Of a stretch of DNA of 64,000 bases, positions 840-46,400 are shown piece by piece. The stretch lies in NCBI RefSeq assembly GCF_003473485.1, contig NC_053044.1, positions 7,700,501 through 7,764,500 of the forward strand, read 5' to 3'. Source of the DNA: Medicago truncatula (lineage: Eukaryota > Streptophyta > Magnoliopsida > Fabales > Fabaceae). The translations under genes were made by a program, and so were the position numbers. The notes below the pieces were generated by a model. It had not been told where the DNA came from. It saw only the letters and a list, made by a program, of their open reading frames with translations, and ran no database searches. The stretch's first letter is position 1; each line of letters begins with the position of its first letter.

Positions 840-2001
840 GAGAATTGCTGTTCCCACTTTTACTTTGGCTGTGCCACACGAGTAAATTACTCAAATACCC
901 TTCAGCAGTTAACTGCCGAAGTTTTAGAAATACGGCTGCAGTTAACTGCCGAGTAAAACTTCGGCAGTAAACTACCGAGGAAAACTGAAACTTCGGCAGT
1001 TAACTGCCGAGGAAACCTCAAACCTTTTTTTTTTTTTTTTTTTTGACAAAATTCATAAATTGTCATTAATAACAAACCTTTTTTTTTTTTTGACAAAAAC
1101 CATAAATTGTCTTTAATAATATTTATTGATTTTGAATGTTTCAATCATTATTTTGGTACGTTTTAAACAATTGCAGTATTATACTTATGTGTATATATCT
1201 TAATAAGAATAACATTTAAATCAGTGTAAAAATTAAGCATTTGAATATTGTTTTGCACATTACTTAAATACAAATAACAATAAAAAAATCGTTAAAATAA
1301 TTGTGCACAACGATTTTTTTAAGGTATAATATGTTGTTATATTTTCTACATTAAAATAATTGTGTATAAAGATTTTTTTTTTATTTAAGTAATTTGCAAA
1401 ACAATATTCAAATACTTAATTTTTACACTTATTGAAATGTTTTTTGAGGACTTAAATGTTAAGCCTAAAACAAAGAAAAAGGAAATAAAAGAAGAAAATT
1501 TCGTGAAAGTTCTTTGGAAATAAAATAGGCAAAAAAAAAAAGATCAAATGAGTAATACAATTAAAATAATTGTGAATATTTCCGTAAAAAGGAAATAAAA
1601 GAAGAAAATTCCGTGAAAGTTTTTGGAAATAAAATATTCACTATTGTTGAAGATCAAAGCAGTTATAACAAAAAAAAAAGATTTAAAGGAGTAATACAAT
1701 TAAAATAAATAAGGAACGCAAATCAATAAAATTAAAAACGAATTATTAAGAAAAATCAATCAAAAATGATAAAGACCGCGGAATATTCTCAAAGAATAAA
1801 AAAAAAAAAAAAAAAACAGATTTGAGGTTTCCTCGGCAGTTAACTGCCGAAGTTTTCAGTTTTCCTCGGTAGTTTACTGCCGAAGTTTTCCTCGGCAGTT
1901 AACTGCAGCCGGTTTCATAATTCGGCAGTTAACTGCCGAGGGGCATTTGAGTAATTTACTCGTGTAGCATAGCCAAACCAAATGTGGGAACAGCAATTCT
2001 C
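840..2001. mobile_element. Mutator-type foldback element with 9-bp target duplication
   Basis: The 1162-bp element starts GAGAATTGCTGTTCCCAC at 840 and ends with the reverse complement at 2001. It is flanked by a perfect 9-bp direct repeat AAGGGGTAT (831-839 and 2002-2010), the target-site length of Mutator-like elements. The terminal inverted repeats extend about 190 bp (840-1030 and 1815-2001). Each carries several copies of the 16-bp palindrome CGGCAGTTAACTGCCG. A second inverted pair lies inside (about 1221-1271 against 1382-1432), and a direct repeat of about 50 bp sits near 1478 and 1590. No transposase frame is present, so it is non-autonomous. Confidence 0.85.
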
Positions 2002-2100
2002 AAGGGGTATAGACTTTTTTTATTGCAAAATTAGTGTAACATAATAAAAATAAAAATAAATAATTTCTTTAAAAAAATAATTATTATTATTATTATTATT

Positions 2101-2395
2101 ATTATTTCTTTATCAAATAATAAAAAAATAGTAGTAGTTTATTTAACCTCTAAAAATATAATTTAATAAATGTTATTTTACATACACATGCGCGCTCGCG
2201 CACACACACATATATATATATATATATAACGACGTGTTTTTTAATAAATAATAATAATAATAATAATATAATTATTTCTTTATCAGATAATAAAAAAATA
2301 GTAGTAGTTTATTTAACCTCTAAAAATATAATTTAATAAATGTTATTTTACATACACGTGCGCGCGCATATATTTATATAACAACGTGTTTTTTT
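2101..2395. repeat. Tandem duplication of about 170 bp with embedded microsatellites
   Basis: The block from 2101 is repeated from 2271 with few differences over about 120 bp (shared TTTATTTAACCTCTAAAAAT). ATT, TA and CA/CG dinucleotide tracts lie at the junctions (2083-2105, 2208-2228, 2250-2268). No coding potential is seen. The bases from 2396 to 2768 hold no recognisable feature. Confidence 0.7.
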
Positions 2396-2768
2396 ACAAG
2401 ATCTAAAGACGTGTTGTTACATTAATTAATGAATATTAAAATTTATTTTTTTTATATTCATAAAGACATAAGGTAAATAAATTTCATTGTTACATAAAAA
2501 TAACGGTAAAACATTGATCGTTTGATACGTACAACATATCAAAGAGAGTAGTATTAGAAAAAAGAGTGATGGGTATAGATTTAAAGTGAGGCAGTAATAG
2601 ACGAGGTATAAATAGTTTAAAAAACAGGTTTTAAAAAAAGAGTGACAAAATATATTATACAAGGGTCAACTCATCATCACTTCAGAATTTTAAAATAATT
2701 GTTGTAAATGAGACAAGTTGTCACTGCGCAAAATTTTTAAAAAATTTAAAATAAGTATTGAACATATT

Positions 2769-4860: not shown

Positions 4861-5153
4861 TCGACATTTTAATTGATGACTTTTCTAAAAAAAATTCATA
4901 ATCATCTAATTCAGTACCAATACATTAACATTGCATCTCAATTGTCTTTTCTATATTTTTAATTGATTTTAAGTGTCTTCTACTAATTTAAAAAAGTTTA
5001 AATTACCTAATCAATTCAATTTTACTTTATTCTACCATCAAACATATAATACACAAATAATTTGACATTTACTTTACATTTACATAAAATTCAATTATAT
5101 CAAAATTCTTATTAAAATTTAATGATCTTTTACAAATAACAAACATTTATTGT

Positions 5154-5183
5154 ACCCGTGCGTCAGCACGGGTTTGTTACTAG
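5154..5183 (+). mobile_element. Helitron-type 3' terminus
   Basis: A perfect 8-bp stem (ACCCGTGC, 5154-5161; GCACGGGT, 5166-5173) with a 4-base loop is followed six bases later by CTAG (5180-5183) and then T. A GC-rich hairpin just upstream of CTRR, inserted before T, is the hallmark of Helitron 3' ends. The repeat array at 3210-4860 lies immediately upstream. I could not place the 5' TC end, so the element length is unknown. Confidence 0.7.
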
Positions 5184-6806
5184 TTTGCTTAAGGGGAAAA
5201 TAGATCCTCTCACTTTTTTTCATTACCATGTTTTCTCAAATTTTCAAACTCAACCCTTAGTGTACTTTTTTTTTTTCCTTCTAAATTTCAAAACTATCCC
5301 CTTTTCATATTTTAAGGGTCTAGATAGATGTTCACATTACTCCCTCATGTTTTTTTTCAACATGAAAAAATATATTACTTTTTTTAATGAGAAAAAATAT
5401 ATTATTTATAAATATTAATATCATTCTCTAAATAAATACCTTTTTAAAAAAAATGTAAAAAAGTTGGTAAACTAAACCGGTAAGCTAATCTCTTGCCATA
5501 TGGAGTATTTTTTTAATTTTTTAGGGAATATGGAGTAATTTATATTGATAAGAAATTGGATTTTTGCAATATCTAAAATAATGTCATGTCATATTATTTG
5601 GTGAGAATAGTTGATAGGAGCTAGATTTAGATCTCAAGTAGCATTTTTTTATAAATAGAAAGAATAGATACCAAGAAAACACACCATTATTCTTGATCAG
5701 AAAAATATTCCAGCCTTTCAATTTTCAAATACAATGAACCATGATTTTGTTTAATTTAATTCTTTACTCTCACTCTCAGCTTCAGTCACAAACACTGAAA
5801 ACAATTTATAAAGAAAAAAAGAAAAATACCTTTTTCTTTTTCACTTTCCAACAGTACTAGTAGAGTAGTTAAACAGACAGACAGACATAAACCACCGTTT
5901 TCATAAGATACTCTTCAATGCCAATGAAGCAACCCAACAACTCCTGTTAAGGTTCTTGTCTTCCTTCTACTATTTTTCACTGTTTTACCATCAAAGTTTG
6001 TTACTTTCTTTGACCCTTTTGATTGTTCTTTCATTTTTCTCTTCTGGGTCACTCTCTTATCATGTTGTTTAGCTGAATTCTTACATGTCTTATTCAGATC
6101 TTTCATTTTCTGATCTCTCTTTCACATGCATTTTTATATGTATGTTTGTTTAGATGCTTGTTTTTGTATTATTTAATATTTTTTAATGATAGAAAATGAA
6201 TATGGTTTTTTTGACTGAGTTTGAATTCAACTTCAACCTATTATTCTATGTTTTGATTAATTATATCTTTTTTCTGTGTCTTCAAGATTTAAAATATTAA
6301 TAATTGGTTAATGTCAATTACAAGTTTTGTGCTCGTATTATTTGTCTGATTTGGATTTATTTAATATTACTAATAAGGATGTGATTGTGAGCATGTTTGA
6401 AATTATGATTTTGAAGTTTTTTTTTTCTTCATGATTCTCCAATATAAGAGACAATAAAATAGCCCTTAATTTTGTTCTTGACTTTTGAATTTTGATACAG
6501 TTAAGTTGTGTAGGATACCTGGATATCTGATTGAATTTATACCATTACTAAGTCATGGCGATGGTCCATGATATGTTAGCTCATTGATAAGAGTTTGATC
6601 TCGTGGTTCTTGAATTTAACTAATAATAATAATATAAGTCATAGTGATGATTATTGATTATGACAAGGACACACCATGATGGAATGTTAATGTTGCTCTT
6701 TATTATTACTATGACATTATTAATTTGGAGTAATATTGAATTTTTATTTTTTTGTAAGTAATGAGTACTATACTTTCCATTTCTGGAAAAATCAAGTAAT
6801 CAATTA

Positions 6807-7104: not shown

Positions 7105-10100
7105 GACTCTACCATGCATTGTTTCTATTTTTGGCTTCTCTTCAAGTTGCTTTAAGTCAAGATATTGAACACGGTTCGCTACTAGTAAATGGAGCTCAAG
7201 CAAAAGCTGAAACAGGTGATAACTTTATTTGTGCCACTATTGATTGGTGGCCTCATGATAAATGCGACTACGGCCATTGTTCTTGGGGATATTCATCTGT
7301 TGTAAATTTGGTGAGTATTTTCAGATTTTCATCTGTATAGAAAATGAAATCAATGCTCTTCTTGAGAATTTATTATATTTCCTTGAAAAGTAACTAACCA
7401 GTTTTAGTCATTGTTCAACTGAATGTGGATTGATTTTGCAGGACTTATCTCATCCTTTCCTAGCCAAAGCGATCCAAGGTGTGTATGTCTAAATTACTTA
7501 AATGTAAATGATTTAGAAAATTAGTTAGTTTGATAACTGATGTTCTTAAAATCGGACTAAACCGGCCAGTTATTCGCTTGGTTAACTTTTCAGTATTTAT
7601 TTGTCATCCGGTTCAACCGTGGTTGAATGGATTGAACCATGACTCGGAGTCGGATGTCTCAGTGGTTTGATCTCCACTCTAGTTTTTAAAACATTGTCGT
7701 TTTTGTTAATGTGGCAAAATGAAGTTTAAATGTATTAAGCATAATGTTATTCTTTTCATATGATTTTCTGATAGCCCTCAAGCCTTTGAGGATAAGACTT
7801 GGAGGTTCTTTGCAAGACCAGGTCGTGTATGACATAGGAAATTTGAAGTCTCCTTGTCATCCTCTTCAAAAGATGAATGGTCAAGGTTGGTTATTTGGAT
7901 TTTCAAAGGGATGTTTACACATGAAAAGATGGGATGAGCTGAATCAATTTTTCAATCAGACAGGGTAAGCATCTTTACTTCATATTTGTTAATATCATCA
8001 CCGTGACACTTACTTTCTCCTCTTTAAAACCAAATGAAAGCAATTTGGCATTTAATTAGGATATATATAACAAAGTTATAGTTTTCACTCTAATGGCTTT
8101 GCTGCTAAAGGGAATGTGCACCACTTTCTTGGTGGTATAGTAGTCTCTCTGGCTGCATTACTAAATAACCATGCAAATAAAAGGATAGTTTCAATTTAGT
8201 CCTTTCTTTCTTATAATTAAAGACTTTAGGTGATTCAATGTATTGTCTTCTATCCTGCATTATTGTAACAGTTTTTGATAGCTTACAAAGAGTATCTGAG
8301 ATATCAGGATGTGTTCAACCCCATTTTGTGTAAATATGTACCAAAACAAAGTACTTGGATGTCTGTGTCTGGTAGAATGATGATTACTTGTGGTAGGTGT
8401 AACTTAACTGAAGTTTGATACTTGCAGGGCCATTGTGACATTTGGCTTGAATGCGCTCCGTGGGAAGCACCAGATTAGTCATCATGTTTGGGAAGGAGTC
8501 TGGGACCCTACAAATGCTTATGATTTTATAAAGTACACTGTTTCAAAGGGATACAAGATTGATGCATGGGAACTTGGTATGACAATAGACAAAGTAGTTT
8601 CTTATTTTCATTAATTTAATAGTTTATTTTAGCATATGCCCAATTGGCGGACTATTAATAGACTGATCTATAGTTGTCAAAGCCTAGGGTTCATGGTCCA
8701 AAAGGTCTAAACAAGTGTTGTCAACCGCGGATCGCATAAAACAGCGATTCGTTCAAATTCCATTACACAATAGTGCCTCTGTGACTATTATTTGACTACA
8801 TTTTGTTAGCATATGGCAGAACAACAGCGATTTCTATAAATTCTACTAAACCAATTAGATTTTATCCCGCTTTAGTTTCTCTGTTATTTGACTACATTTT
8901 ACCCGATTTGGACTTATTGCATATGATTATGTAGGTAATGAGTTAAGCGGTAAAGGCATTGGTGCATCAGTTGGCGTTACACAGTATGGTAAAGACTTGA
9001 TAAAACTTAAACGAATTCTAGATGTGTTATACGAGAAGTCCAGGTTCAAACCTTCACTTGTAGCACCTGGTGGATTTTATGAAAAGGAATGGTACGATAA
9101 ACTTCTTCAGGTTTCTGGTTCAGGCATAATCAATGTTCTGACTCATCATCTATATAATTTGGGCCCAGGTTTGCTTGTCACTCACATAATTCTCTCTAGT
9201 ATAGTCATTTTTACTGAATATTTAATAGTAGTGGAATAGCATCAGGTACAATCAGTTGAGGAAATAAAAACATGTTTTATTGGTAGACTGTTGCTGTTTT
9301 TTTGTAAAGAAGGTCGTTGTTTGTCCAGATGTTTTCTTCTCTTTACATTATATTTTTTGGAAAGAAAATACCTTTTTCCCATAAAAATCAGTTATATGAA
9401 TTTCTTTTTGTAGTGATAGATACCTACCTAGTAGTGCGCCTTATATATTGACAAACGGATATGAAAAATGTTAACGATTACTTTTTAATTTCTTTTACTC
9501 GAGGGACAAAATATGAGAGTGTGTAAATTCAAGACAAAATTGGTGGTTTACTCATTTAAATTGTAAAGGGTAGCCTTGGCGCAACGGTAAAGTTGTTGTC
9601 ACAACACATGACTGAAAGGTCACGGGTTCAAGTCCTAGAAACAACCTCTTGCCTAAAAAATAGGGTAAGGCTGTGTAATGGTGGGACCCCTTGCCCGCAT
9701 GCAGGATGATATAGTTTTTTCACTTGCATTCGAAATACTGTTGTCTGCCTTTCATAATCTATTTCTAAGTTAATTTCGCTTTTCAGGTAGTGATGGACAT
9801 CTTGAAGGGAAGATTTTAGATCCTAATCGCTTGAGCAAGGTGGAAACAATTTTCAGCAATCTGTCAGAAACCATTCAAAAACATGGTCCTTGGACTTCTG
9901 CATGGGTAGGAGAAGCTGGCGGGGCATATAACAGTGGCGGCCGTTGTGTATCTAACACATTTCTGAATAGCTTTTGGTAATTGATTCCATCATTTTCTTT
10001 TCCTCTTTCTAAGTTTTAGGTGCCAGAAGAAGAATTTTGATTTTTATTTAGAATGTGTTTAACCGAATATTTGAATGATTCATAGGTACTTAGATCAACT

Positions 10101-11559
10101 TGGAATAGCATCCACCTACAATACTAAAGTTTATTGTAGGCAGACATTAATTGGAGGGAACTATGGCCTTCTCAATACCTCCACGCTCGCTCCTAATCCT
10201 GACTACTACAGGCACGTATAAATTAAATATTACTGGATTTTTTTTAGAGATTAATAGATAATTTGATATACTTTTATTTGAGGGTTTATAGTGGTTATGC
10301 ATGTCATCGTCAAACATATCTAATCCTAGATTCTGGTTCTGCAAACAGCGCACTATTGTGGCATCGGCTGATGGGAAAGAAGGTTCTTGGTGTTTCGAGT
10401 GATGTTTCCTCGCCATTTTTACGCACTTACGCCCATTGTTCAAAAGACAGAGTAAGTATGCTCATTTAGTACAACACATTTGGATGGATATTATTTTATA
10501 GAGACGGGATGAGTTTAGTTTTCATTCTTTTATATATGATAAATATGACTGAAATTATATATGATTGATGTCCCAATTCTTGGAAAATTAAAGTCGATAT
10601 GACATCATACTAAGCTCAACACATGTGTGTAAGAAATAATGTAAATAGGGTAAATATTGATTGATTATTTTGGTGAATATTATAATTTGATTACCTTAAT
10701 TAGTGTAACTATGGACTGGTTCTTAGTAGTTTCATACTTGAGACGCATAAGTTCTGTCAAATGTCTCAGTTTCGTTTTCTCTCAGCATGATATATGTAGT
10801 TTAACGAGAGCCATCTCCATTCCCAAATAAAATTGCAAGTAGTTGCAAAAAACATAAAGATCTAGAAATCATAGGTAGTGCGTAAATATTTTAGTATTTA
10901 ATGGTAAGCAAAGCCATCTCCATTCCCATTAAATACTAAAATATTTACGCACTACCTTTGATTTCTAGATCTTTATGTTTTTTGCAACTAAATGCAATTT
11001 TATTTGATATTGAATGTTTGAAAATATTGAATCCAGGTTGATTCAGTGTCATTCTTAATTTGTTCACAATTCTTTTTCTTGAATCAAAAATTTGCGGTAT
11101 CTTTTGACTTTTGCTAGTAATTTCAGCATTCCTCAAATTATTACGCATTTCATTCTACAGGCTGGTGTAACACTACTGTTGATCAACTTAAGCAATCAAA
11201 CTCACTTCATACTCAATGTGAAAAACCCTGTAACTGTTAAAGCAAATGAAGTGGCCAAAAACATCCATGAAGAAAAAAATTCATTCTTTCACAATCTCAA
11301 GAAAGCATTTTCTTGGATTGGAACAAAAGGGTCAGAGGTCACATTCAGGGAAGAGTATCACTTAACTCCGAAAGATAATAACCTCAAAAGCCAAACCATG
11401 GTGCTAAATGGCATTCCACTAAAGCTAACAAATGAAGGGGATATTCCAACAATGGATCCAGTGCACAATAATGTAAGATCTCCAATATATATAGTTCCTT
11501 TGTCAATTGCATTTATTGTGTACCCTAACTTTGATGCTCCAGCTTGTGCTAGATACTGA
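7101..11559 (+). CDS. GH79 heparanase-like glycosidase, array copy 1 (545 aa)
   Basis: Nine exons: 7101-7310, 7442-7478, 7775-7964, 8428-8576, 8935-9168, 9787-9976, 10086-10211, 10349-10451, 11161-11559. They join in frame to 1638 nt. The protein begins with a signal peptide (MRLYHALFLFLASLQVALSQ), so it should be secreted or vacuolar. GH79 hallmarks are LRIRLGGSLQD (about residues 84-94), the acid/base glutamate E198 in GNELSG and the nucleophile E316 in WVGEAGG. It is closest to plant heparanase-like proteins of the AtGUS3 type; relatives release glucuronic acid from arabinogalactan proteins or flavone glucuronides, so the substrate is open. Intron 7 has a GC donor. Unlike copies 2-4 it keeps 28 residues (447-474) before REEYHLTPKD. 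Intron 5 carries an Au-type SINE and intron 8 a long inverted repeat. Confidence 0.93.
7540..7700. repeat. Dispersed repeat in intron 2 of GH79 copy 1
   Basis: The segment is bounded by GATGTTCTTAAAATCG and an inverted TTTTTAAAACATTG and contains CCGGTTCAACCG-type motifs. It recurs in the same intron of copy 4 (about 29030-29175). In copies 2 and 3 only the ends remain. It is probably an old TIR element that was present before the array expanded and was later deleted internally. Confidence 0.45.
8716..8836. repeat. Dispersed repeat in GH79 intron 4
   Basis: Begins TGTTGTCAACCGCGGATCGC and runs through ATTTGACTACATTTTGTTAGC. Copies lie at the same intron position in the other array genes (about 16590-16700, 23513-23620, 30065-30190). 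Independent copies lie in the introns of the zinc-finger gene (about 44172, 47380 and 47632). It is a non-coding interspersed repeat of unknown class. Confidence 0.5.
9568..9705 (+). mobile_element. Au-type SINE in intron 5 of GH79 copy 1
   Basis: The head GGGTAGCCTTGGCGCAACGG holds the A box. GGTCACGGGTTCAAGTC holds the B box and is followed by AACCTCTTGCC and AGGGTAAGGCTGTGTA. This order and wording match the plant Au SINE family as I know it. It is absent from intron 5 of the other three copies, so it arrived after the array formed or was lost from them. Confidence 0.8.
10824..11006. repeat. Long inverted repeat in intron 8 of GH79 copy 1
   Basis: Two arms of 81 bp (10824-10904 and 10926-11006) are near-perfect reverse complements with a 21-bp spacer. 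The right arm corresponds to intron 8 sequence of the other copies (for example 18805-18900). The left arm is extra, so this is a local inverted duplication. AGCCATCTCCATTCCCA precedes both arms. The transcribed intron could fold into a long hairpin. Confidence 0.75.
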
Positions 11560-14831: not shown

Positions 14832-14861
14832 ATGCTGCTGCAATTCATTCAGTCATCATGA
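14832..14861 (+). promoter_or_regulatory. Upstream ORF overlapping the GH79 copy 2 start codon
   Basis: Nine codons (MLLQFIQSS) with a TGA that overlaps the main ATG at 14858 as ATGA. It differs from copy 1 by one Leu-to-Phe change. Confidence 0.5.
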
Positions 14862-17800
14862 GACTCTACCTTGCATTGTTTTTCTTTTTGGCCTCTCTTC
14901 AAGTTACTCTAAGTAAAGATATTGAACATGGTTTGCTACTAGTAAATGGAGCTAAAGCAAAAGCTGAAACAGGTGATAACTTCATTTGCGCAACGATTGA
15001 TTGGTGGCCTCCTGAATGCAACTTCGGCGTTTGTTCTTGGGGACATTCGTCTATTGTAAATTTGGTGTGTATTTTTAGATTTTCACCTGTATAGAGAATA
15101 AAATCAATACTTTTGAAATTTTATGTTTCCTTGGAAAGCAGCTAACCCGTTTTAGTCATTGTTCAATTGAATGTGGATTGATTTTTCAGGACTTATCTCG
15201 TCCTCTCCTTGCCAAAGCAATCCAAGGTTTGTATGTCTAAATTACTTAAATGTATATGATTTAGACAAATTGTTAGTTTTATGACCGATGTTTTATAAAT
15301 CGGATAATTATTTTGGTCTCAGCGGTTTGATCTCTGGTCTTGTTTTTAAAAATCGGATAATTTGTTAGTTTTATGACCGATGTTTTTAAAAATCGGATAA
15401 CATTGTTGATGACATTATTAATGTGGTTGCATGAAGTTTAAATGTATTAAGCATAATGTTATTCTTTTCATATCATGTTCTGATAGCCCTTAAGCCTTTG
15501 AGGATAAGACTTGGAGGTTCTCTGCAAGACCAGGTGGTGTATAACGTAGGAAACTTGAAGTCTACTGGTCATCCATTTCAAAAGATGAAAAATGGTTTGT
15601 TTGGATTTTCAAAGGGATCTTTACACATGCAAAGGTGGGATGAGCTGAATCATTTTTTCAATAAGACAGGGTGAGGATCTTCTCATTATATTTGTTATTA
15701 TCCTCACCGCCACCTTCACTTTCTCTTCTTTTAAATCTAATAAAAAGTATAGTTTCAATTTAGTGCTTTCTTCCATATAATTGAAGACTTTAGGTGATTT
15801 ACTTATTTTGTTATTTGAAGTGATTCAATGTATTGTCTTCTATCCTGCACTATTGTAACAGTTTTTGTTAGCTTACAAAGAGTGTCTGAGATATCAGGAT
15901 GTGATCGACCCCATTTTGTGTAAATATGTACCAAAACAAAGAATTTGGATGTCTGTCTGGTAGAATTATGATTACGTCTGGTAGGAGTAACTTAATTGAA
16001 GTTTGACACTTGCAGGGTGTTAGTAATAGGACTCCTAAGGGCAGTAGTTATAGAATAATAGTAGTTTATTTAATAATATTATAAATTAGTTACTGTTACT
16101 TATGTGCAGTAATTGCTGTCTACAAAACTTCTATGTAACTGCTACAGGAGAGAGTTAGTATTATAAATAAGATGCAGAGGAAAAGAAAGGCATTCAGGGA
16201 TTGGGATAAAGGATTGGTAGGGAGAGACCAAGCTCTCGAATACTTGGAGGGGAGAGAACCAAGACTCTCGAATTTCTTGGGATTATATTGTAATCTTACT
16301 ATTAGTTTATATTTTGATATCAGTTCCTATCACAGGGCCATTGTGATGTTTGGCTTGAATGCCCTCATTGGGAGGCACAAGATTAACAATACTAATAATG
16401 TTTGGGAAGGAGCCTGGGACCCTACAAATGCTTATGATTTTATAAAGTACACTGTTTCAAAGGGATACAAGATTGATGCATGGGAATTTGGTACGACAAT
16501 AGACAAAGTAGTTTGTTATTTTCGTTAATGGACTGATCTATAGTTGTCAAAGCCTAGGGGTTCATGGTCCAAAAGGTCTAAACAAGTGTTGTCAATCGCA
16601 GATCATAGAAAAGATCAATTCATTCAAATTCCACTACGCAACAATGCTATAGTGCCGTTATAACTGTTATTGACAACATTTTGTTAGTGTATGGCGGAAC
16701 AACACTGGTTTAAGCCAATTGATTTTCATCCCACTTTAGTCTTCTCTGTTGTTATCCGATGTGGACTTATTGCATATGCTTATGTAGGTAATGAGTTGAG
16801 TGGTACAGGCGTTCGTGCATCAGTTGACGTTGCACAGTATGGGAAAGACGTGATAAACCTTAAACGAATTCTAGATGAGTTATACAAGAACTCGAGGTTC
16901 AAACCCTTACTTGTAGCACCTGATGGAAGTTATGATAAGGAATGGTACAATAAGCTTCTTCAGCTTTCTGGTCCAGGCGTAATCAATGTTCTGACTCATC
17001 ATTTATATAACATAGGCCGAGGTTTGCTTATCACTCACATAATTCTTTCTAGTATAGTCAATTTCACTAAATATCTAATATCCTAAGATATGTAGATATT
17101 CTTCATTTGTTTCTATTGCTGTTTTAATTTCTTTTACTTGAGGAATTGGTGGTTTACTCATATTGAAATTGTATCAGAATATATGTTTTGTTCACTTGCA
17201 TGCAAAATATTACTGTCTACCATTCATAATCAATTTCTAAGTTAATTTCTCTTTTTCAGCTATTGACACACATCTTTTAGAGAGGATTTTAGATCCTGAT
17301 AAGTTGAGCGAAGCGGAAACAACTTTCAGAAATCTTTCAGAAACCATTCAAAAACATGGTCCTTGGGCTTCTGCATGGGTAGGAGAATCTGGCGGGATAT
17401 CTTGGAGTGGCGGTCGTGATGTATCTGACACATTTGTGAATAGCTTTTGGTAATAATGATTCCATCATTTTCTTTTCCTCTTTTTAAGTTTTAGGTGCCA
17501 AAAGAAGAATTCTGATTTTTTACTTAGAATGTGTTTAACCAATTATATGAATGACTCGTCGTAGGTACTTAGATCAACTTGGAATGGCATCCACCTACAA
17601 TACCAAAGTTTATTGTAGGCAGTCATTAATTGGAGGGAACTATGGTCTTCTCAATACCTCCACTCTCGCTCCTAATCCTGACTACTACAGGCACGTATAA
17701 ATTAAATATTACAGAATTTTTTTTTTTTTAGAGACTAATAGATAGCTTGATATACTTTTATTTGAGGATTTATAGTGGTAATGCATGTCATTGTTAAACA

Positions 17801-19306
17801 TATCTAATCCTAGATTCTGTTTCTGCAAACAGCGCACTATTGTGGCATCGGCTGATGGGAAAGAAGGTTCTTGGTGTTTCGACTGATATTTCTTTGCCAT
17901 TTTTACGCACCTACACCCATTGTTCAAAAGAAAGGGTAAGTATGCTAATTTACTACAACCTCTTAGGAAGGATATTATATTATAGAGGAACCTGATGAGT
18001 CCAGTTTTTATTCTTTTATATATGATATGATAAATATAATGACATCATATGAAGCTTAACACGCGTGTGCTAGAAATGATGTAAATATGGTAACTATGGA
18101 TTGACTTTTTGGCGATTATTATAATTCGAGTATCTTAATTAGTGTAACTATGGGATACCGATTCTTAATAGTTTCGTAGTTGAGACACATAGGTTCTGTC
18201 AAATGTCTAGTTTCTGAGAGACAATAGTCCATGAATACCTAGTGGATCCGTTATTAATTGCTGTATTTTCCCCTAAAACCATGCTTCTGCTTCGGTTTCT
18301 GATCTGCACTGACATTGGCAGCCATGTTTATCTTTTTTCGACCTGTTAGAATTCAGAGAATTCTCGAGAGGAACTGATATTATTAAAGTTGAAAAATGAA
18401 CTGATTCAGATGCAAGGGAGGTCGCAACTATTTATAGAAGTTGACGGACGAAGATAATAGCAACTGTTCAGCTAGATCTGTGTGATCAGATACAGTTACA
18501 ATAAACTTATAAACCCGAGTAAGTAGACTCTAATACTCTCCTGAAACCTCAAGGTGGGTCGGAGCCATGAAAAGATGATAGATCATACACAGTGGTTAGG
18601 ATATGAGAACTACATATGTCATATCTTTAGACAACGTGGGACTAAACACAAACCGTCATTCCCAACAGAATGAAGGTGCTGCAGACTACAACATAGGCAA
18701 CCCAAAGTTTCCGCTATTAAAGCGGCTAGCGGAAAACTACAATTAATGCTACTTTCATCTTTCTAACATATTTTAATTGCTAAACTGAATAAGGTCATCT
18801 CCATTCCCATTAAATATATAAATATTTCCACACTACCTTCTATCCAATAAAGATCTTTGCTTTCTAGATCTTTATGTTTTTCGAAACTATATGCAATTTC
18901 AGTTGATAATGAATGTATGATAATATTGAATCCCGGTTGATTCAGTGTCATGCTTAATTTCCTACTAATTGTTACCAATTTGATTTTACAGGCTGGTGTA
19001 ACATTATTGTTGATCAACTTAAGCAATCAAACTCAGTTCATACTCAATGTGAAAAACCATGTAACTGTTAAAACAAATGAAGTGGCCAAATTCAGGGAAG
19101 AGTATCACTTGACTCCAAAAGATAATAACCTCAGAAGCCAAACCATGGTGCTGAATGGCATTCCACTCAAGTTAACAAATAAAGGGGATATTCCAACAAT
19201 GGATCCAGTGCACAATAATGTGAAATCTTCAATACACATAGCTCCTTTGTCCATTGCATTTATTGTGTACCTAAACTTTGATGCTCCAGCTTGTGCCAGG
19301 CACTGA
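14858..19306 (+). CDS. GH79 heparanase-like glycosidase, array copy 2 (516 aa)
   Basis: Nine exons: 14858-15064, 15190-15226, 15487-15670, 16336-16490, 16788-17021, 17260-17449, 17565-17690, 17833-17935, 18992-19306. They join in frame to 1551 nt. The signal peptide is kept (MRLYLALFFFLASLQVTLSK). The acid/base glutamate is E197 in GNELSG and the nucleophile E315 in WVGESGG. The function should match copy 1: a secreted glycosidase acting on glucuronosyl groups. A 315-bp solo LTR sits at the 3' end of intron 3, and the exon 4 acceptor used here is the one recreated by its target duplication. Intron 7 has a GC donor. Exon 9 lacks the 28-codon block of copy 1. It is most like copy 3. Whether it still yields a normal mRNA depends on the altered acceptor. 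Confidence 0.87.
16018..16332 (+). mobile_element. Solo LTR on the intron 3/exon 4 junction of GH79 copy 2
   Basis: The 315-bp insert begins TGTTAG and ends CTATCA (TG...CA ends of an LTR). It is flanked by a perfect 5-bp duplication CAGGG (16013-16017 and 16333-16337). Copies 1, 3 and 4 show the empty site GCAGGGCC. A TATA-like TTATAAATAA (16161-16170) suits an LTR promoter in + orientation. No internal retroelement domain remains, so it is probably a solo LTR left by recombination; superfamily not determined. Confidence 0.85.
18345..18667. mobile_element. LTR-like fragment in intron 8 of GH79 copy 2
   Basis: The segment begins TGTTAGAATTC and ends CATTCCCAACA, with LTR-like phrases such as CTCAAGGTGGGTCGGAGCC. 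A shortened form lies in intron 8 of copy 3 (about 25080-25260), so it was present before these two copies separated. I could not find a clear target duplication, so its limits are uncertain. Confidence 0.45.
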
Positions 19307-22151: not shown

Positions 22152-25100
22152 GACTCTCCCTTGCATTGTTCATCTTTTTGGCCTCTCTTCAAGTTACTCT
22201 AAGTAAAGATGTTGAACATGGTTTGATACTAGTAAATGGAGCTCAAGCAAAAGCTGAAATAGGTGATAACTTCATTTGCGCAACGATTGATTGGTGGCCT
22301 CCTGAATTATGCAACTTCGGCGTTTGTTCTTGGGGACATTCATCTATTGTCAATTTGGTGTGTATTTTTAGATTTTCACCTGTATAGAAAATGAAATCAA
22401 TGCTTTTAAAATTTTATGTTTCCTTGGAAAGCAAGCTAACCTGTTTTAATCATTGTTCAGGACTTATCTCATCCTCTCCTTGCCAAAGCAATCCAAGGTT
22501 TGTATGTCTAAATTACTTAAATGTATATGATTTAGATAATTTGTTAGTATTATGATCGATGTTTTTAAAAATCGGATAACATTGTTGATGACGTTATTAT
22601 TGTTGATGGCATTATTAATGTGGCTGCATGAAGTTTAAATGTATTAAGCATAATGTTATTCTTTTCATATCATTTTCGGATAGCCCTCAAACCTTTGAGG
22701 ATAAGACTTGGAGGTTCTCTGCAAGACCAGGTGGTGTATAACGTAGGAAACTTGAAGTCTCCTGGTCATCCATTTCAAAAGGTGAAAGGTGGATTTTTAG
22801 GATTTTCAGAGGGATCTTTACACATGCAAAGGTGGGATGAGCTGAATCATTTTTTCAACAAGACAGGGTGAGAATCTATACATTATATTTGTTATTATCG
22901 TCACCGCCACCTTCACTTTCTCTTCTTTTAAACCAAATAAAAAGGATAGTTTCAATTTAGTGCTTTCTTCCTTATAATTGAAGACTTTAGGTGATTTATT
23001 TATTTTGTTATTTGGAGCGATTCAATATATTGTCTTCTATCCTGTACTATTGCAACAGTTTTTGTTAGCTTACAAAGAGTGTCTGAGATATCAGGATGTG
23101 ATCGACCCCATTTTGTGTAAATATGTACCAAAACAAAGAACTTGGATATATGTGTCTGGTAGAATTATGATTACGTCTGGTAGAATTGTAACTTAATTGA
23201 AGTTTGACACATGCAGGGCCATTGTGATGTTTGGGTTGAATGCGCTCAGTGGGAGGCACAAGATTAGTAACACTAGTAATGTTTGGGAAGGAGCCTGGGA
23301 CCCTACAAATGCTTATGATTTTATAAAGTACACTGTTTCAAAGGGATACAAGATTGATGCATGGGAATTTGGTACGACAATAGACAAAGTAGTTTGTTAT
23401 TTTTGTTAACGCATTAGTTTGTTTTAGCATATGCCCAATTGGCGGAGTGTTAATGGACTGATCTATAGTTGTCAAAGCCTAAGGGTTCGTGGTCCAAAAG
23501 GTCTAAACAAGTGTTGTCAATCGTGGATCATAGAAAATAGTGATTATTTAAATTCTACGCAACAATGTTGAAGTCCCGCTGTAACTGTTATTGACAACAT
23601 TTTGTTAGCGTATGGCGGAGCAACACTGGTCTAAGCCATTTGATCTTCATCCCACTTTAGTCTTCTTTGTTGTTATCAGATGTGGACTTATTGCATATGC
23701 TTATGTAGGTAATGAGTTGAGTGGTACAGGCGTTGGTGCATCAGTTGGCGTTGCACAGTATGGGAAAGACGTGATAAACCTTAAACGAATTCTAGATGAG
23801 TTATACAAGAACTCGAGGTTCAAACCCTTACTTGTAGCACCTGATGGAAGTTATGATAAGGAATGGTACAATAAGCTTCTTCAGCTTTCTGGTCCAGGCG
23901 TAATCAATGTTCTGACTCATCATTTATATAACATAGGCCGAGGTTTGCTTATCACTCACATAATTCTTTCTAGTATTGTCTACCATTCATAACCTATTTC
24001 TAAGTTAATTTCTCGTTTTCAGCTAATGACACGCATCTTATAGAGAGAATTTTAGATCCTGATCACTTGAGCGAAGTGGAAACAACCTTCAGAAATCTTT
24101 CAGAAACCATTCAAAAACATGGTCCTTGGGCTTCTGCATGGGTAGGAGAATCTGGCGGGATATCTAGGAGTGGCAGTCGTGATGTATCTAACACATTTGT
24201 GAATAGCTTTTGGTAATATTGATTCCGTCATTTTTTTCCCTCTTTCTAAGTTTTAGGTGCCAGAAGAAGAATTCTGATTTTTTATTTAGAATGTGTTGAA
24301 CCGAATATTTGAATGACTCGTCGTAGGTACTTAGATCAACTTGGAATGGCATCCACCTACAATACTAAAGTTTATTGTAGGCAGTCATTAATTGGAGGGA
24401 ACTATGGTCTTCTCAATACCTCCACTCTCGCTCCTAATCCTGACTACTACAGGCAAGTATAAATTAAATATTACAGAAAAATAAAAATCAGAGATTAATA
24501 GATAATTTGATATACTTATATTCCCTGGAATGTTACTTAAGGATTTATAGTAGTAATGTATGTCATTGTTAAACATATCTAATCCTAGATTCTGGTTCTG
24601 CAAACAGTGCGCTGTTGTGGTATCGGCTAATGGGAAAGAAGGTTCTTGGTGTTAGGAGTAATATTTCTTCGCCATTTTTACGCACTTACTCCCATTGTTC
24701 AAAAGACAGTGTAAGTATGCTAATTTATTACAACTTCTTAGGAAGGATATTATATTATAGAGAGATGTGATGAGTTTAGTTTTTATATTTGATTAATATC
24801 CCACGAAAAATTAAAGTTGATATGACATCATACGAAAAACTTAACACGCGTGTGTAACTGTGGATTGATTCTTTGGCGATTATTATAGTTTGAGTACCTT
24901 AATTTGTGTAACTATCTACGGGCTACTGATTCTTAATAGTTTCATAGTTGAGACACATAGGTTCTGTCAAATGTCTCGTTTCCGAGAGACAACAATAGTC
25001 CATGAATAACTAGTGGATCCATTATTCATTGCTGTATTTTTCCCTAAAACCATGCTTCATGCTTCTATAAATAGCTACTGGTCGCAACTATATATAGAAG

Positions 25101-25944
25101 TCGACCGACGAAGATAATAGCAACTGTTCAGCTAGTTCTGTGTACTATAGAGATTAGATACAGTTACAGTAAACTTATAAACCCGAGTAAGTATACTCTA
25201 ATACTCTCCTACAAGCTCAAGGTGGGTCGGAGCCATGAAAAGATGATAGATCATACACACTGAGCTTTGATCTCAGAGCTTCAAATCTAGTTTGCGCTAT
25301 TAACGCGGCTTTCAGCTTTTTAACATATTTTAATTGCTAAACTGAATAATGTCATCTCCATTCCCATTAAATACATAAATATTTCCACACTACCTTCTGA
25401 TCGAATAAAGATCTTTGCTTTCTAGATCTTTTATGTTTTTTGAAACTACATGCAATTTCAGTTTATAATGAATGTATGATAGTATTGAATCCAGGTTGAT
25501 TCAGTGTCATGCTTAATTTCATAGTAATTCTTTTTTACTGCAGAGTAATTTCCATCATCTGTTGGCTAATTTGCTATTAATTTAAGCAATCCTCAAATTC
25601 TTACCAATTTGATTTTACAGGCTGGTGTAACATTACTGTTGATCAACTTAAGCAATCAAACTGAGTTCATACTCAATGTGAAAAACCATGTAACTGTTAA
25701 AGCAAATGAAGTGGCCAAATTCAGGGAAGAGTATCACTTAACTCCAAAAGATAATAATCTCAGAAGCCAAACCATGGTGCTGAATGGCATTCCACTTAAG
25801 TTAACAAATAAAGGGGATATTCCAGCAATGGATCCAGTGCAAAATAATGTGAAATCTCCAATATACATAGATCCTTTGTCCATTGCATTTATTGTGTACC
25901 CAAACTTTGATGCTCCAGCTTGTGCCAGGCACTCAAAACTATAA
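22148..25944 (+). CDS. GH79 heparanase-like glycosidase, array copy 3 (520 aa)
   Basis: Nine exons: 22148-22357, 22461-22497, 22684-22867, 23217-23371, 23709-23942, 24023-24212, 24327-24452, 24608-24710, 25621-25944. They join in frame to 1563 nt. A signal peptide is present (MRLSLALFIFLASLQVTLSK). Catalytic E198 (GNELSG) and E316 (WVGESGG) are kept. Just after the nucleophile the sequence reads ISRSGSRD where the other copies have a Gly-Gly pair, a change close to the active site. The copy 1/2 stop (TGA after the final His) is TCA here, so the protein gains SKL at its C-terminus. Intron 7 has the textbook GC donor AG|GCAAGT. It lacks the 28-codon block of copy 1. Substrate unknown, as for copy 1. 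Confidence 0.92.
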
Positions 25945-28517: not shown

Positions 28518-31500
28518 ATGAGACTCTACCTTGCATTGTTTTTCTTTTTGACCTCTCTTCAAGTTACTCTTAGTAAAGATATTGAACATGGTTTGCTACT
28601 AGTAAATGGAGCTCAAGCAAAAGCTGAAACAGGTGATAACTTCATTTGTGCCACTATTGATTGGTGGCCTCATGATAAATGCAACGACGGCTATTGTTCT
28701 TGGGGACACTCATCTATTGTAAATTTGGTGAGTATTCTGTTCTATGAAGCACGGATTCTAACACGGACACCTAACACGACACTGACAATACGTCAACTTG
28801 CTGATGTAAATAACATAGGACATCGACACCACTATAGAAAATGAAATCAATGCTCTTAAAATTTTATGTATCCTTGGAAAGCAGCTAACCTGTTTTAGTC
28901 ATTGTTCAATTCAATGTTGATTGATTTTTCAGGACTTATCTCATCCTTTCCTTGCCAAAGCAATCCAAGGTCTGTATGTCTAAATTACTGAAATGTATAT
29001 GATTTAGAAAATCTGTTAGATTGATGACCGATGTTTTAAAAATCGAATTGAACCAGTCAGTTCGCTGACTGGTTTAATAATTTTTTAGTATTTATCTGTC
29101 ATCTGGTTTAACCATGGTTTAATTGATTAAACCATGACTCAGAGGTCTCTGCGGTTAGATCTCCGTTCTTGTTTTTAAAACATTGTTGATGGCATTATTA
29201 TTGTTGTTTTTTTATTAATGTGGCTGTATGAAGTTTAAATGTATTAAGCATAATGTTATTCTTTTCATATCATTTTCTGATAGCCCTCAAACCTTTGAGG
29301 ATAAGACTTGGAGGTTCTTTGCAAGACCAGATCGTATATGACATAGGAAATTTAAAGTCTCCTTGTCATCCACTTCAAAAGATGAATGGTCAAGGTTGGT
29401 TATTTGGATTTTCAAAGGGATGTTTACACATGAAAAGATGGGATGAGCTGAATCAATTTTTCAATCAGACAGGGTGAGAATCTTTTACATTATATTTGTT
29501 ATTATCCTCACCGCCACCCTCACTTTCTTTTCTTTTAAACTAAATAAAAGGATAGTTTCAATAATTCAATTTAGTCCTTTCTTCCTTATAATTAAAGACT
29601 TTAGGTGATTCAATGTATTGTCTTCTATCCTGCACTATTGCAACAGTTTTTGTTAGCTTACAACGAGTGTCTGAGATATCAGGATGTGATCCAATCCATT
29701 GTGTAAATATGTACCAAAACAAAGAACTTGGATGTCTGTGTCTGGTAGAATTGTAACTTAATTGAAGTTTGACACATGCAGGGCCATTGTGATGTTTGGC
29801 TTGAATGCGCTCAGTGGGAGGCACAAGATTAGTAACACTAGTAATGTTTGGGAAGGAGCCTGGGACCCTACAAATGCTTATGATTTTATAAAGTACACTG
29901 TTTCAAAGGGATACAAGATTGATGCATGGGAATTTGGTATGACAATAGACAAAGTATTTTGTTATTGTTGTTAATGCATTAGTTTGTTTTAGCATCTGCC
30001 CAATTGGCAGAGCGTTAATGGACTGATCTATAGTTGTCAAAGGGGTTCATGGTCCAAAAGGTCTAAACAGTGTTGTAAATCGCGGATCACATAAAATAGT
30101 GATTCATTCAAATTCCACTACGCAACAGTGCTATTGTGCCGCTATAAATGTTATCTGATAACATTTTGCTAGCGTATGGCGGAACTATAGCAATTTGTTT
30201 AAGGTTCAGTGACACTATTTAACAACACTGGTCTAAACCGATTGGACTTCATCCTGCTTTAGTCTTCCCTGTTGTTACCTGATGTTGACTTATTGCATAT
30301 GCTTATGTAGGTAATGAGTTAAGTGGTGAAGGCATTGGTGCATCAGTCGGTGTTGCACGGTATGGGAAAGACGTGATAAAACTTAAACGAATTCTAGATG
30401 TGTTATACAAGAACTTAAGGTTCAAACCCTCGCTTGTAGCACCTGGTGGATTTTATGTAAAGGAATGGTACACTAAGCTTCTTCATATTTCTGGTTCAGG
30501 CGTAGTCAATGTTGTAACTCATCATATATATAACTTGGGCCCAGGTTTGCTTGTCACTTACATAATTCTTTCTAGTATAGTCAGTTTCACTGAATATCTA
30601 ATATCCTAATATATCTCGATATTCTCCCTTTGCTTCTACCATACCATTCATAATTTCTAAGTTAATTTCTCTTTTTCAGGTAATAACACACATCTTGTAG
30701 AGAAGATTTTAGATCCTAATCGCATGATCAAAGTGGAAACAACTTTCAAAAATCTTTCAGAAACCATTCAAAAACATGGTCCTTGGGCTTCTGCATGGGT
30801 TGGAGAAGCTGGCGGGGCAGCTAACAGTGGCGGTATTGGTATATCTAACACATTTGTGAATAGCTTTTGGTAATACTGATTCCCTCATTTTCTTTTCCTT
30901 TTTCTAAGTTTTAGGTGCCAAAAGAATTTTTTTTTTAGAATGTGTTGAACCGGATATTTTAATGACTCGTAGGTACTTAGATCAACTTGGAATGGCATCC
31001 AACTACAATACTAAAGTTTATTGTAGGCAGACATTAATTGGAGGGAACTATGGCCTTCTCAATTCCTCCACGCTCTCTCCTAATCCTGACTACTACAGGC
31101 ACGTATAAATTAAATATTACGGATTTTTTTTTTTAGAGATTAATAGATAATTTGATATACTTCTATTTGAAGATTTATAGTGGTTATGCATGTCATTGTT
31201 AAACATATCTAATCCTAGATTCTGGTTCTGCAAACAGCGCACTATTGTGGCATCGGCTGATGGGAAAGAAGGTTCTTGGTGTTTCGAGTGATATTTCTTC
31301 GCCATTTTTACGCACTTACGCCCATTGTTCAAAAGACAGGGTAAGTATGCTCATTTAGTACAACTCCTTAGGAAGGAGGTTATATTATAGTTCAAAAGAT
31401 GTGATGAGTTTAGTTTTTATTCTTTTATATATGATAAATATATGATGGATATTATATATGATTAATGTCTCAATGATTGAAAAATTAAAGTTGATAACGA

Positions 31501-31965
31501 ATGTTTGAAAATATTGAATCCAGGATGATTCAGTGTCATTCTTGAAGCAAAAGTTTTTGCTATCTTTTGACATTTGCTATTAATTTAAGCAATCCTCAAA
31601 TTCTAACCAATTTCATTTTACAGGCTGGTGTAACACTACTAGTGATCAACATAAGCAATCAAACTCAGTTCAGACTCAATGTGAAAAACCATGGAACTGT
31701 TAAAGCAAATGAAGTGGCCAAATTCAGGGAAGAGTATCACTTAACTCCAAAAGATAATAATCTCAGAAGCCATACCATGGTGCTGAATGGCATTCCACTC
31801 AAGTTAACAAATAAAGGGGATATTCCAACAATGAATCCAGTGCACAATAATGTGAAATCTCCAATATACATAGCTCCTTTGTCCATTGCTTTTATTTTGT
31901 ACCCAAACTTTGATGCTCCAGCTTGTGCCAGGCACTCTGAAAACTATAAAGTCTATGATAAATAA
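28518..31965 (+). CDS. GH79 heparanase-like glycosidase, array copy 4 (528 aa)
   Basis: Nine exons: 28518-28727, 28933-28969, 29284-29473, 29782-29936, 30311-30544, 30680-30869, 30973-31098, 31238-31340, 31624-31965. They join in frame to 1587 nt. A signal peptide is present (MRLYLALFFFLTSLQVTLSK). The acid/base is E200 (GNELSG) and the nucleophile E318 (WVGEAGG). It is mosaic: exons 1, 3, 5, 6 and 8 resemble copy 1, whereas exon 4 matches copy 3 almost exactly and exon 9 shares the 28-codon deletion of copies 2 and 3. A 2-bp insertion before the old stop extends the C-terminus by SENYKVYDK. Intron 8 is only 283 bp and lacks the insertions of the other copies. Intron 7 has a GC donor. Function as for copy 1. 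Confidence 0.93.
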
Positions 31966-36555: not shown

Positions 36556-36872
36556 GGTTTAATAACCGTTTTAGTCTCCTAATTTTTTTAAAGTTGCGAT
36601 TTTGGCTCTCTATGAAAAAAATTACAAAATTGCCTCCTAAGTTTTGCAACTATAGCAGTTTTGGCCTCCAAGGCCATTTTTTGGTAAAAAAAATAACACG
36701 TGGCACCTCACTTAAGGTGTCACGTCAGCATAGATCAAGTCAAAATTGACCTTGGGGGCCAAAACTGCCACAGATGTAAAACTTAGGAGACGGCTTTGTA
36801 GTTTTTTTTTCTTCTTAGGGAGCCAAAATCGCAACTTTAAAAAAATTAGGGGGCTAAAATTGCTATTAAACC
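36556..36872. mobile_element. Mutator-type foldback MITE upstream of the SNARE gene
   Basis: The 317-bp palindromic element begins GGTTTAATAACCGTTTTAG and ends CTATTAAACC. It is flanked by a perfect 9-bp duplication TATTTATTT (36547-36555 and 36873-36881). Long arms (AAAGTTGCGATTTTGGC and its inverse near 36830) meet in the centre at about 36715 (CCTCACTTAAGGTGTCACG). It lies immediately upstream of the SNARE gene leader. Confidence 0.8.
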
Positions 36873-43467: not shown

Positions 43468-46400
43468 TCAACCAGTGACCGACCCTGCCTTCTTCACCAT
43501 AGCAGCATGTTTCTGGCCAACAAGGTGAAAATTGAAAACTGTCTGGCTATTACACACCACATTGCATAAAGTGCACATTTTAATACCATCAACTGCAGCT
43601 CCTCCTTCTACAACTTTACGTTTCTTCGTCTCAATATCAAGTTCAGATGCCTTCTTTGGTTTTGGCTGATCGGTACCTGGCTTTTCTTGTGGCCCGATTA
43701 AGGTATTTGGTGCGATGGCGGTGGTGGTGGCGGTGGAAGTGCCACTAGTGCCGACATCGATTTTTGGATTTGACTGTTTCTCCAAGGTCTTCAAGTGTTT
43801 CTTACCGGCTAAGTGTGTAATGTAGATATCCCTGCTGTTACAATTAATCTTGCAAACTTCACACCATACAGATTGAGCAACCTTGATTTTCTTAGCAGCT
43901 TTTTGAAATGGACCAACACCGTTACGCTTGAATTCGGCAATAGATGGACCAATGCCATTATTAGACATCAAGGCAACCTGTGAGTCACAAAAAGTGGTCA
44001 ACTCAGAAACAATCCACTAATGGCTTTACGCCTTGTAGTTCAATAGGGTAAAACAGCAAATCAAATGAGCAACTTGGGAAAAATGTAGGTAATAATAGAT
44101 TAAGCTTATCTATAGATAAACATCCAGGATAACTGATAGCAAACAAGTAATGATGATAAAATCTCGCTAAAACCAGTGTTGTCAGTCATGGATCGCAAAA
44201 AATACTTGTTTGTTCAAGGTCACTAGAAATCAAGACTGATATCCTTTCCTGTATGGCAGTATATAAGGTCCTCATTGTTGTCGTCAAAACTATGAACCCA
44301 AAAGACTATTTTTACTTAATTGAACTATTAATGTTAAGAAAAACCGCATGTGATATTTTATTTATCATGTTTAACTGTTCAAATGTTTCAAAGGTTATAT
44401 ATATACAAATGGAGTTTGGCCCGGAAGTACAGAATTTCTAAGAAAAGTACATTTGAGACAATTAATTATAGGGTTAATAGTGCTTTACCCCCCTGTAATA
44501 TAGGTCATTTTCGGTTTCCCCCCCTGTAAAATTTTCTTTTTGGATTCCGTCCTTGTAATTTGAAGTTTTTTTTGGTTTTGGACCTTCATGAATTTTGAAT
44601 GTACAAAATCGATGATATGGCAGGGGGGTAAACCGAAATTTGCTCAAATTGCAGGGGGTAAACCGAAATTTCCTCAAATTACAGGGGGCAAAATTTTTCA
44701 TGAAGGTCTAAAACAAAAAAATCTTCAAATTACAAGGACGGAATCCAAAAAAAATATTTTACAGGGGGCAAAACCGGAAATGACATATATTACAGTGGGT
44801 AAAGCACTATAACCCTTAATTATAACAGTACTTGCAGTAAAATATATAAAGAACAAGTGGTTTTGCTGTGTTTTTGGGCTGCTTGGGTTGATGTTTTAGG
44901 GGTTTTTGGGAGTGGGCAGGAGTATGCGTGTAGTATGTTGCATGTATATTCTGGCCTCACCGCTTGATACCAAGGCTTTTGTGGGGGGTTTTGACGGTTC
45001 TTTGGTGTTTCCGTATATATGCGGCACCTATGTGTAATTTACCTTTCCCTTTTATCCGCAAGTTGGAGTGCTTCTTGCATATACTCGTCGTGAATAAATT
45101 CGCCATTTAAAAAAAAAAAAATGATAGAAGATTGATTCTTGTCCTATTAAATGTTTTTCTTGTATTAGAATAAGTTGAATACAATAATGGATAGTAAGAA
45201 ATTATGCCTACAGCTTTCAAGGAAGATCATACAAGTCTGTCGCAGGTGTGCACAGTATTCAAGATATTATTAATCAGAAGATGCTGCTCCAAAAGGGGCT
45301 GGCAATGGTTTTTAAAAGTTGAAAAAAGGAAATTTAAAAAAAAATCATGCACAATGAACATTCCCTTCTGTTATCCATGAATCATGGAGACCTGATTAAC
45401 AATTGATATTATAATTTATGATGTCATCAAATCCATGTAATCTACTCCTTCAACTAAAAGACTATTGTTGTTATACCTCTGTAGTTAGCAGAGGCTGTGG
45501 CGGCTATAATGCTGTGGCATGTCATAGCGGTAGCTACAGTGTAGTCAGGATTGAGTGCTGGCTCTTAGGATTGTACGATTCTACGTCCCACAGCACCTCG
45601 ACCATGCTTCGACTTTACTCCGGTTCGTTTTTGCTCTGTTTCCTCTGTTTTTTGCCCTTTTTCCTCTGTTTTTCTCTATTTTGTTGCTTGGTTCCTGTTT
45701 TTCCTCTATTTTCTCTATCTATTTCTCTCAACTCTATCAACAACCTACCGATCCTAATTACGAACCGTGGTACATTCCTCGTGTTTACGTTCTTTCACCG
45801 GACGACTGATCCTACATAGGATCTCGATCCTGACTACATTGTATCTAGGCTCTACTGAAATCGGGGCAGCGCAGCATTTTAACGTAGCGCCCATGGTGGT
45901 CAACACGTTGCAACCATTTCATAGTCAAATTGAGGGAATTAGCAACCGCAACACAACACTAAACTCATTTGGAAAACCCAAAAAATGCCCTCCATTTATA
46001 GCCTGTCTTCATCTCCAGAAGAACACTTTTTATTTCCAGTAACTTTTTTGCAGTGGATGAGTAAGGCAAATATTTTGAACTCGAATACTCAGTATGAAAA
46101 TAAGAGAATTATGGTGGGTTGCCAAAATCACTTTGTAGCTTTTGCAAAATCACGGTGTCTCGCTGAGATTTCAGTCAGCAAACCCAATGACACCAAACAT
46201 GCACATAACCAGCTATCTTACATGCATTTTAGCTAAATGGCCTACAGAGTTAATTAATGGCCTAGAGTTAATTAGCTAAACCCACAGTAATCCTATCTTG
46301 CCTTGTGGGTCCAATTAAGATAAAAATAACAGTGTTTCAGAACCATGAACAAGAGAATAGGTACAAACTGAAAAGCAATTTTCATCCTTTTAATATTCTT

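Follow-up and report, generated by a model that had tools for sequence, protein, structure and literature searches.

The window, the whole 64,000-nucleotide stretch of Medicago truncatula DNA that was analysed, carries a tandem array of GH79 genes. The second gene (copy 2) holds a 315-bp insert, identified as a solo LTR, exactly on the splice acceptor of exon 4. The 5-bp target duplication left copy 2 with two identical acceptors 320 bp apart. Repair of splicing by this duplication is plausible, at about even odds, with a near-null gene as an alternative close behind.

The GH79 array and the insertion site

The array consists of four tandem copies of a nine-exon GH79 (plant heparanase-like) gene. 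The gene models, built from copy comparison and splice consensus rather than RNA, were open from ATG to stop and encoded 545, 516, 520, and 528 aa for copies 1–4, respectively. Copy 2 matched Pfam Glyco_hydro_79n (PF03662) with an E of 2.7e-144 and solved heparanase structures with a best E of 9.9e-41 (residues 133–513). Its E197 and E315 aligned with NE and GE of heparanase, which we take to be the catalytic glutamates. With the N-terminal Pfam domain present and both glutamates aligned, copy 2 was assigned to GH79.

In the models of all four copies, intron 7 was a GC-AG intron (AG|GCACGT; AG|GCAAGT in copy 3). The last exon of copy 1 (11161–11559) had 28 extra codons compared with those of copies 2, 3, and 4 (18992–19306, 25621–25944, and 31624–31965), with the frame unshifted. 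The window also gave Rfam matches to MIR2619 (129.9 bits, 36627–36796) and MIR2629 (83.3 bits, 1878–1946), both microRNA families of Medicago truncatula. Adjoining minus-strand ORFs at 43468–44016 and 46499–47107, each of which has two stretches of zf-met zinc fingers, are perhaps duplicates of each other. The features used below are as follows.

14858..19306, + strand: copy 2 GH79 gene, 9 exons, 516 aa via the downstream acceptor (gene model, Pfam, heparanase structures)
15671..16335, + strand: intron 3 of copy 2 via the downstream acceptor, 665 bp; 345 bp via the original one (gene model)
15992..15996, + strand: branch-site-like TTAAT, A at 15995, 20 nt before the original acceptor
16013..16017, + strand: upstream target site duplication CAGGG, with the original exon 4 acceptor AG at 16014–16015
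16018..16332, + strand: solo LTR TGTTAG...CTATCA, 315 bp, gene-sense; missing from all three paralogues, with a family in the genome
16162..16168, + strand: TATA-box-like TATAAAT in the LTR
16172..16335, + strand: LTR reading frame with ATG, open into exon 4
16295..16318, + strand: branch-site-like motifs at the LTR 3' end, CTTAC (A 16298), TTTAT (A 16309), and TTGAT (A 16317)
16333..16337, + strand: downstream target site duplication CAGGG, with the second acceptor AG at 16334–16335
16336..16490, + strand: exon 4 of copy 2 via the downstream acceptor (gene model)
8425..8429, + strand: empty site in copy 1, one CAGGG (alignment)
23214..23218, + strand: empty site in copy 3, one CAGGG (alignment)
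29779..29783, + strand: empty site in copy 4, one CAGGG (alignment)
10212–10348, 17691–17832, 24453–24607, and 31099–31237: GC-AG intron 7 of copies 1, 2, 3, and 4 (gene models)

In copy 2, a TG...CA insert split the exon 4 acceptor CAG|GG, with TG at 16018 and CA at 16331–16332, and the order of the sequence was TTGCAGGG, the 315-bp insert, and CAGGGCCATTG. CAGGG stood on both sides. The repeat was exactly 5 bp long, the adjoining bases being unlike (G/A on the left, T/C on the right). When the four copies were aligned, only copy 2 had the extra sequence. Matching flanks by themselves are weak evidence, since 77 of the 40,273 TG..CA pairs spaced 250–400 bp in the 64-kb window (0.19%) also have identical 5-bp flanks. 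A chance origin is excluded by the three empty paralogous sites together with the multi-copy LTR family described below. Because of the 5-bp duplication and the many family copies elsewhere, deletion from copies 1, 3, and 4 instead of insertion was ruled out.

The original prediction had placed this insert and its duplication at 16013..16337, and sequence and alignment showed the coordinates to be exact. It had named the presence of the 315 bp in other copies as a finding that would count against it, and the alignment showed the insert to be absent from all three.

The coding consequences of the two acceptors were investigated in the gene model. Splicing at 16336 restored the codon GG|G, followed by TGAIVMFGL as in copies 3 and 4, and gave 516 aa. 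Splicing at 16016 gave a 156 aa product, with a TAA as codon 14 past the junction. The predicted frame retention at the downstream acceptor and early stop from the original one were thus both reproduced. Skipping of exon 4 (155 bp) would shift the frame. The other splice sites of copy 2 were kept, and neither stop nor frameshift was present in 516 codons. A second allele of copy 2 was sought in the same genome, with 40 of 120 candidates scored. Among the matches listed, just copies 2, 3, and 4 of the window were found; the list is incomplete, since copy 1 is missing from it.

The LTR family and the age of the insertion

The genome (430 Mb, 42 contigs) was searched with the 315-bp insert, and 40 of 117 candidates were scored. 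The insert had at least 44 matches including itself, that is, at least 43 others, some of them fragments of one copy. A total of 27 stretches were fetched, covering 40 of the 43 other matches, with three partial ones left out. Nine stretches held paired LTRs of one element, and the outer 5-bp flanks matched at five of five positions in all nine. The paired elements had LTRs of about 310–330 bp and an outer length of 1450–1634 bp in eight cases; the ninth (L017) was 2801 bp long. A single LTR was found in 16 stretches, 12 of them with identical 5-bp flanks. In the remaining four, the flanks matched at four of five positions in two, at one in one, and at none in L033, which looks like a 5' LTR because of a primer-site-like sequence after it. 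The two rearranged loci, L018 and L019, had outer flanks matching at 3/5 and 2/5 positions. With a possible target preference for splice sites in mind, the target duplications of the other family copies in the fetched stretches were compared by eye, and they varied.

The internal signals of the paired elements were those of LTR retrotransposons. The sequence TGGTATCAGAGC, presumably the primer site for initiator tRNA-Met (tRNA-iMet), followed the first LTR in six of the nine pairs (L009–L012, L015, and L017). L013 had TGGTATCAAAGC, with one change, and L014 a weaker variant; in L016, a primer site after the first LTR was not found. The polypurine tract AGGGGGGGAG preceded the last LTR in every pair except L012. 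TG...CA ends, 5-bp target duplications, empty sites, paired relatives, primer site, and polypurine tract were therefore all present, as expected of an LTR retrotransposon. The original prediction of a solo LTR agrees with these pairs from the same genome, with their identical 5-bp flanks, primer site, and polypurine tract, and on this sequence evidence the insert is identified as the solo LTR of a small multi-copy retrotransposon family. A MITE or other DNA transposon was ruled out on the same grounds.

In L010 and in L017, one internal ORF was compared with Pfam, and neither had a relevant match for reverse transcriptase or integrase at E up to 1. These two elements look non-autonomous, unlike an autonomous Copia or Gypsy element, since their ORFs lack a retrotransposon domain in Pfam. 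The 315-bp LTR had no match in viral contigs (searched with one 22-base word) or in plasmids, and its sequence words had no match in the open-licence papers searched. RNA folding of the LTR was not unusual (z −1.2; 13 of 100 shuffles equally stable).

Several family loci had structures of their own. Both LTRs of L012 were preceded by one shared flank (...agcataacattc), unlike those of the other pairs, a pattern suggestive of a tandem duplication of LTR plus flank. The first LTR of L015 was rearranged by an internal partial duplication (query 1–290, then 93–315). In L039, a 399-aa open frame without a Pfam match at E 0.001 lay near a family LTR (1407–2606, minus strand), and an ORF with a MULE transposase domain lay at 5009–6187.

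The age of the insertion was investigated from LTR divergence. The two LTRs of one element differed by 0.3 to 7.4% in eight family copies. The window LTR differed by 2.9% from its nearest relative among 33 others compared, and its terminal branch was 0.0216 substitutions per site, an estimate built on few substitutions in 315 bp with 40 of 117 candidate relatives scored. Copies 2 and 3 had a dS of 0.074 and differed by 9.4% in introns. Since the LTR branch is short beside these values, the simplest reading dates the insertion after the split between copies 2 and 3, and it has probably been carried through a substantial part of the separate history of copy 2. A nearer, unsampled LTR relative would make the insertion younger.

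Choice between the two acceptors

In the proposed course of events, copies 2 and 3 would have separated first. A small LTR retrotransposon would then have inserted, in sense orientation, within CAGGG at the 3' end of copy 2 intron 3, and would later have been reduced to a solo LTR. This would leave two acceptors in competition, 320 bp apart. The LTR 3' end, with its branch-like motifs and T-rich tract, and the AG of the downstream duplication may together form a working acceptor. The LTR would leave with the lengthened intron 3 often enough for copy 2 to remain a coding gene, and transcripts using the original acceptor would stop at codon 14 past the junction. The chances for and against this course of events are judged to be evenly balanced.

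The LTR end has candidate signals for an acceptor. YTNAY is a branch-site motif, and branch-like A's of this motif precede the downstream acceptor by 37, 26, and 18 nt. Of 33 LTR 3' ends compared within the family, 32 had TTTTGAT and 18 were identical over the final 45 nt. Base composition was also investigated. The 60 nt after the original acceptor were 70% AT. The 32 modelled exon starts of the array were 50 to 67% AT, and the downstream site of copy 2, one of them, was 57%; at the 37-nt exon 2, the 60-nt span reaches into the intron. Plants recognise introns partly through AU-richness. A small acceptor weight matrix from 31 introns of the array (26 distinct sites), with intron 3 of copy 2 excluded, gave 9.67 for 16336 and −0.22 for 16016. 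It was dropped and these scores were not used, since true acceptors scored too unevenly, from −9.2 to 10.0 with the same intron left out.

The reading frame of copy 2 gave a further line of evidence. The coding sequences of copies 2 and 3 differed by 4.4% (the slightly later stop of copy 3 omitted), against 9.4% in introns. There was one coding indel, of 3 bp, against 27 in introns, 22 of them not multiples of three, per 194 intron substitutions. A neutral coding sequence of the age of the insertion (0.0216) would be expected to hold 1.2 stops and 3.8 frameshifts; none was observed, with a probability of 0.0067, in a test that leans on intron indels from automatic alignments. This probability was 0.10 at an LTR age of 0.010 and 0.0003 at 0.035. 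Neutrality was not rejected by stops alone (P 0.33). A clean frame in copy 2 could also result from gene conversion within the array, with copy 3 as the donor.

Dominance of the original acceptor is the main alternative. The LTR would then be retained in exon 4, translation would stop at codon 14, and the transcripts would be degraded; copy 2 would have become near-null so recently that its frame is still intact. In copy 2, the original acceptor keeps an unchanged TTGCAG context and an unchanged branch region, so the downstream acceptor must outcompete the original one rather than replace it. Splicing generally favours the first good AG past the branch point. The stop that follows from the original acceptor agrees with a near-null gene, and so does the pattern of substitution: the copy 2 branch had 22 nonsynonymous and 8 synonymous changes, 1.12 times the neutral ratio (P 0.68), with no sign of amino-acid constraint. 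The copy 3 branch had 18 and 12, 0.61 times the neutral ratio (P 0.13), and the difference between the two branches was not significant (Fisher P 0.41). These counts comprise 60 changes polarised by copies 1 and 4, from 69 copy 2/3 differences in total. However, about five disabling changes would be expected in a near-null copy 2 at the LTR age and none was present, and the AT-rich stretch past the original acceptor is unlike the exon starts of the array. A near-null copy 2 is a serious possibility, at somewhat less than an even chance.

Use of another site, either an LTR acceptor in frame with exon 4 or a transcription start in the LTR, is quite unlikely. There were 38 AGs at 15960–16336, and besides 16336, ten gave an open frame to the protein end; for example, 16324 adds 4 residues and 16198 adds 46. 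Acceptor 16324 has a branch-like A (16298) 25 nt upstream of its AG, but the nearest such A (16317) is only 6 nt before 16324, and the CAG|GG site follows only 12 nt further on. A transcript started in the LTR would draw on the TATA-like box and the ATG at 16172, which is in frame with exon 4. This ATG begins 10 nt downstream of the first base of the TATA-like box and so is probably upstream of the transcription start, and the product would lack about residues 1–142.

Returning to competition between the two acceptors, a wider role of the family can be proposed. With TTGAT in a T-rich tract and an LTR ending in CA, LTR 3' ends of the family might act as portable acceptors needing only a well-placed AG. 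Since the target duplication would bring the AG, insertion of sense copies at acceptors might be tolerated, and in copy 2 the dual-acceptor competition might tune expression. This proposal is doubtful.

Comparison with known systems

The original prediction had called the insertion a rare natural case. This was borne out in part. Of about 4129 positions in the copy 2 gene, 32 (0.8%) are 5-bp targets containing an acceptor AG; an acceptor AG inside a 5-bp target is duplicated automatically, and a close precedent exists in the canine merle SINE (PMC7349775). The origin of the second AG's upstream signals in the transposon, by contrast, is not automatic.

In the merle allele, as described in PMC7349775, a SINE lies at the exon 11 acceptor of PMEL17, with a 15-bp duplication holding the original acceptor. 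Use of the original acceptor gives the normal protein, and a cryptic acceptor in the SINE gives an abnormal one. Merle and copy 2 share a retroelement on an intron/exon boundary and an acceptor within the target duplication. Unlike copy 2, with a plant LTR in sense orientation and a 5-bp duplication known from sequence, merle has a dog SINE in reverse orientation and a 15-bp duplication; its acceptor choice depends on poly(A)/poly(T) length, and its phenotype is known.

Introner elements, in the excerpt of PMC9860276, are similar in that target duplications can supply splice sites and the element is spliced out. They create new introns, whereas in copy 2 the existing intron 3 was lengthened and none was created. 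SMART/FRetro129 (PMC3281118) and TRIMs (PMC4717578), as far as the available text of these sources extends, resemble the LTR family in short LTRs, 5-bp target duplications, solo LTRs, a small internal region without a recognised protein domain, and genic insertions that can alter gene structure. FRetro129 is 292 bp in PMC3281118, and the elements of the present family are larger, at 1.45–1.63 kb in eight of nine and 2.8 kb in one. Within the parts of the open-licence literature seen, no like case other than merle was recognised, and a plant solo-LTR case may already have been reported elsewhere. The excerpt of the plant splicing review PMC4598772 held no rule for acceptor choice.

The copy 2 insertion is a good natural experiment and not a new kind of system. 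It places two identical CAG|GG acceptors in one gene, the first preceded by native sequence and the second by sequence from a transposon, and copies 1, 3, and 4 are adjoining uninterrupted sister genes that can be used as controls. Should the downstream site prove to be in use, an LTR end can furnish the signals that a plant splice acceptor needs upstream of its AG, and copy 2 would show how a gene survives insertion on a splice site.
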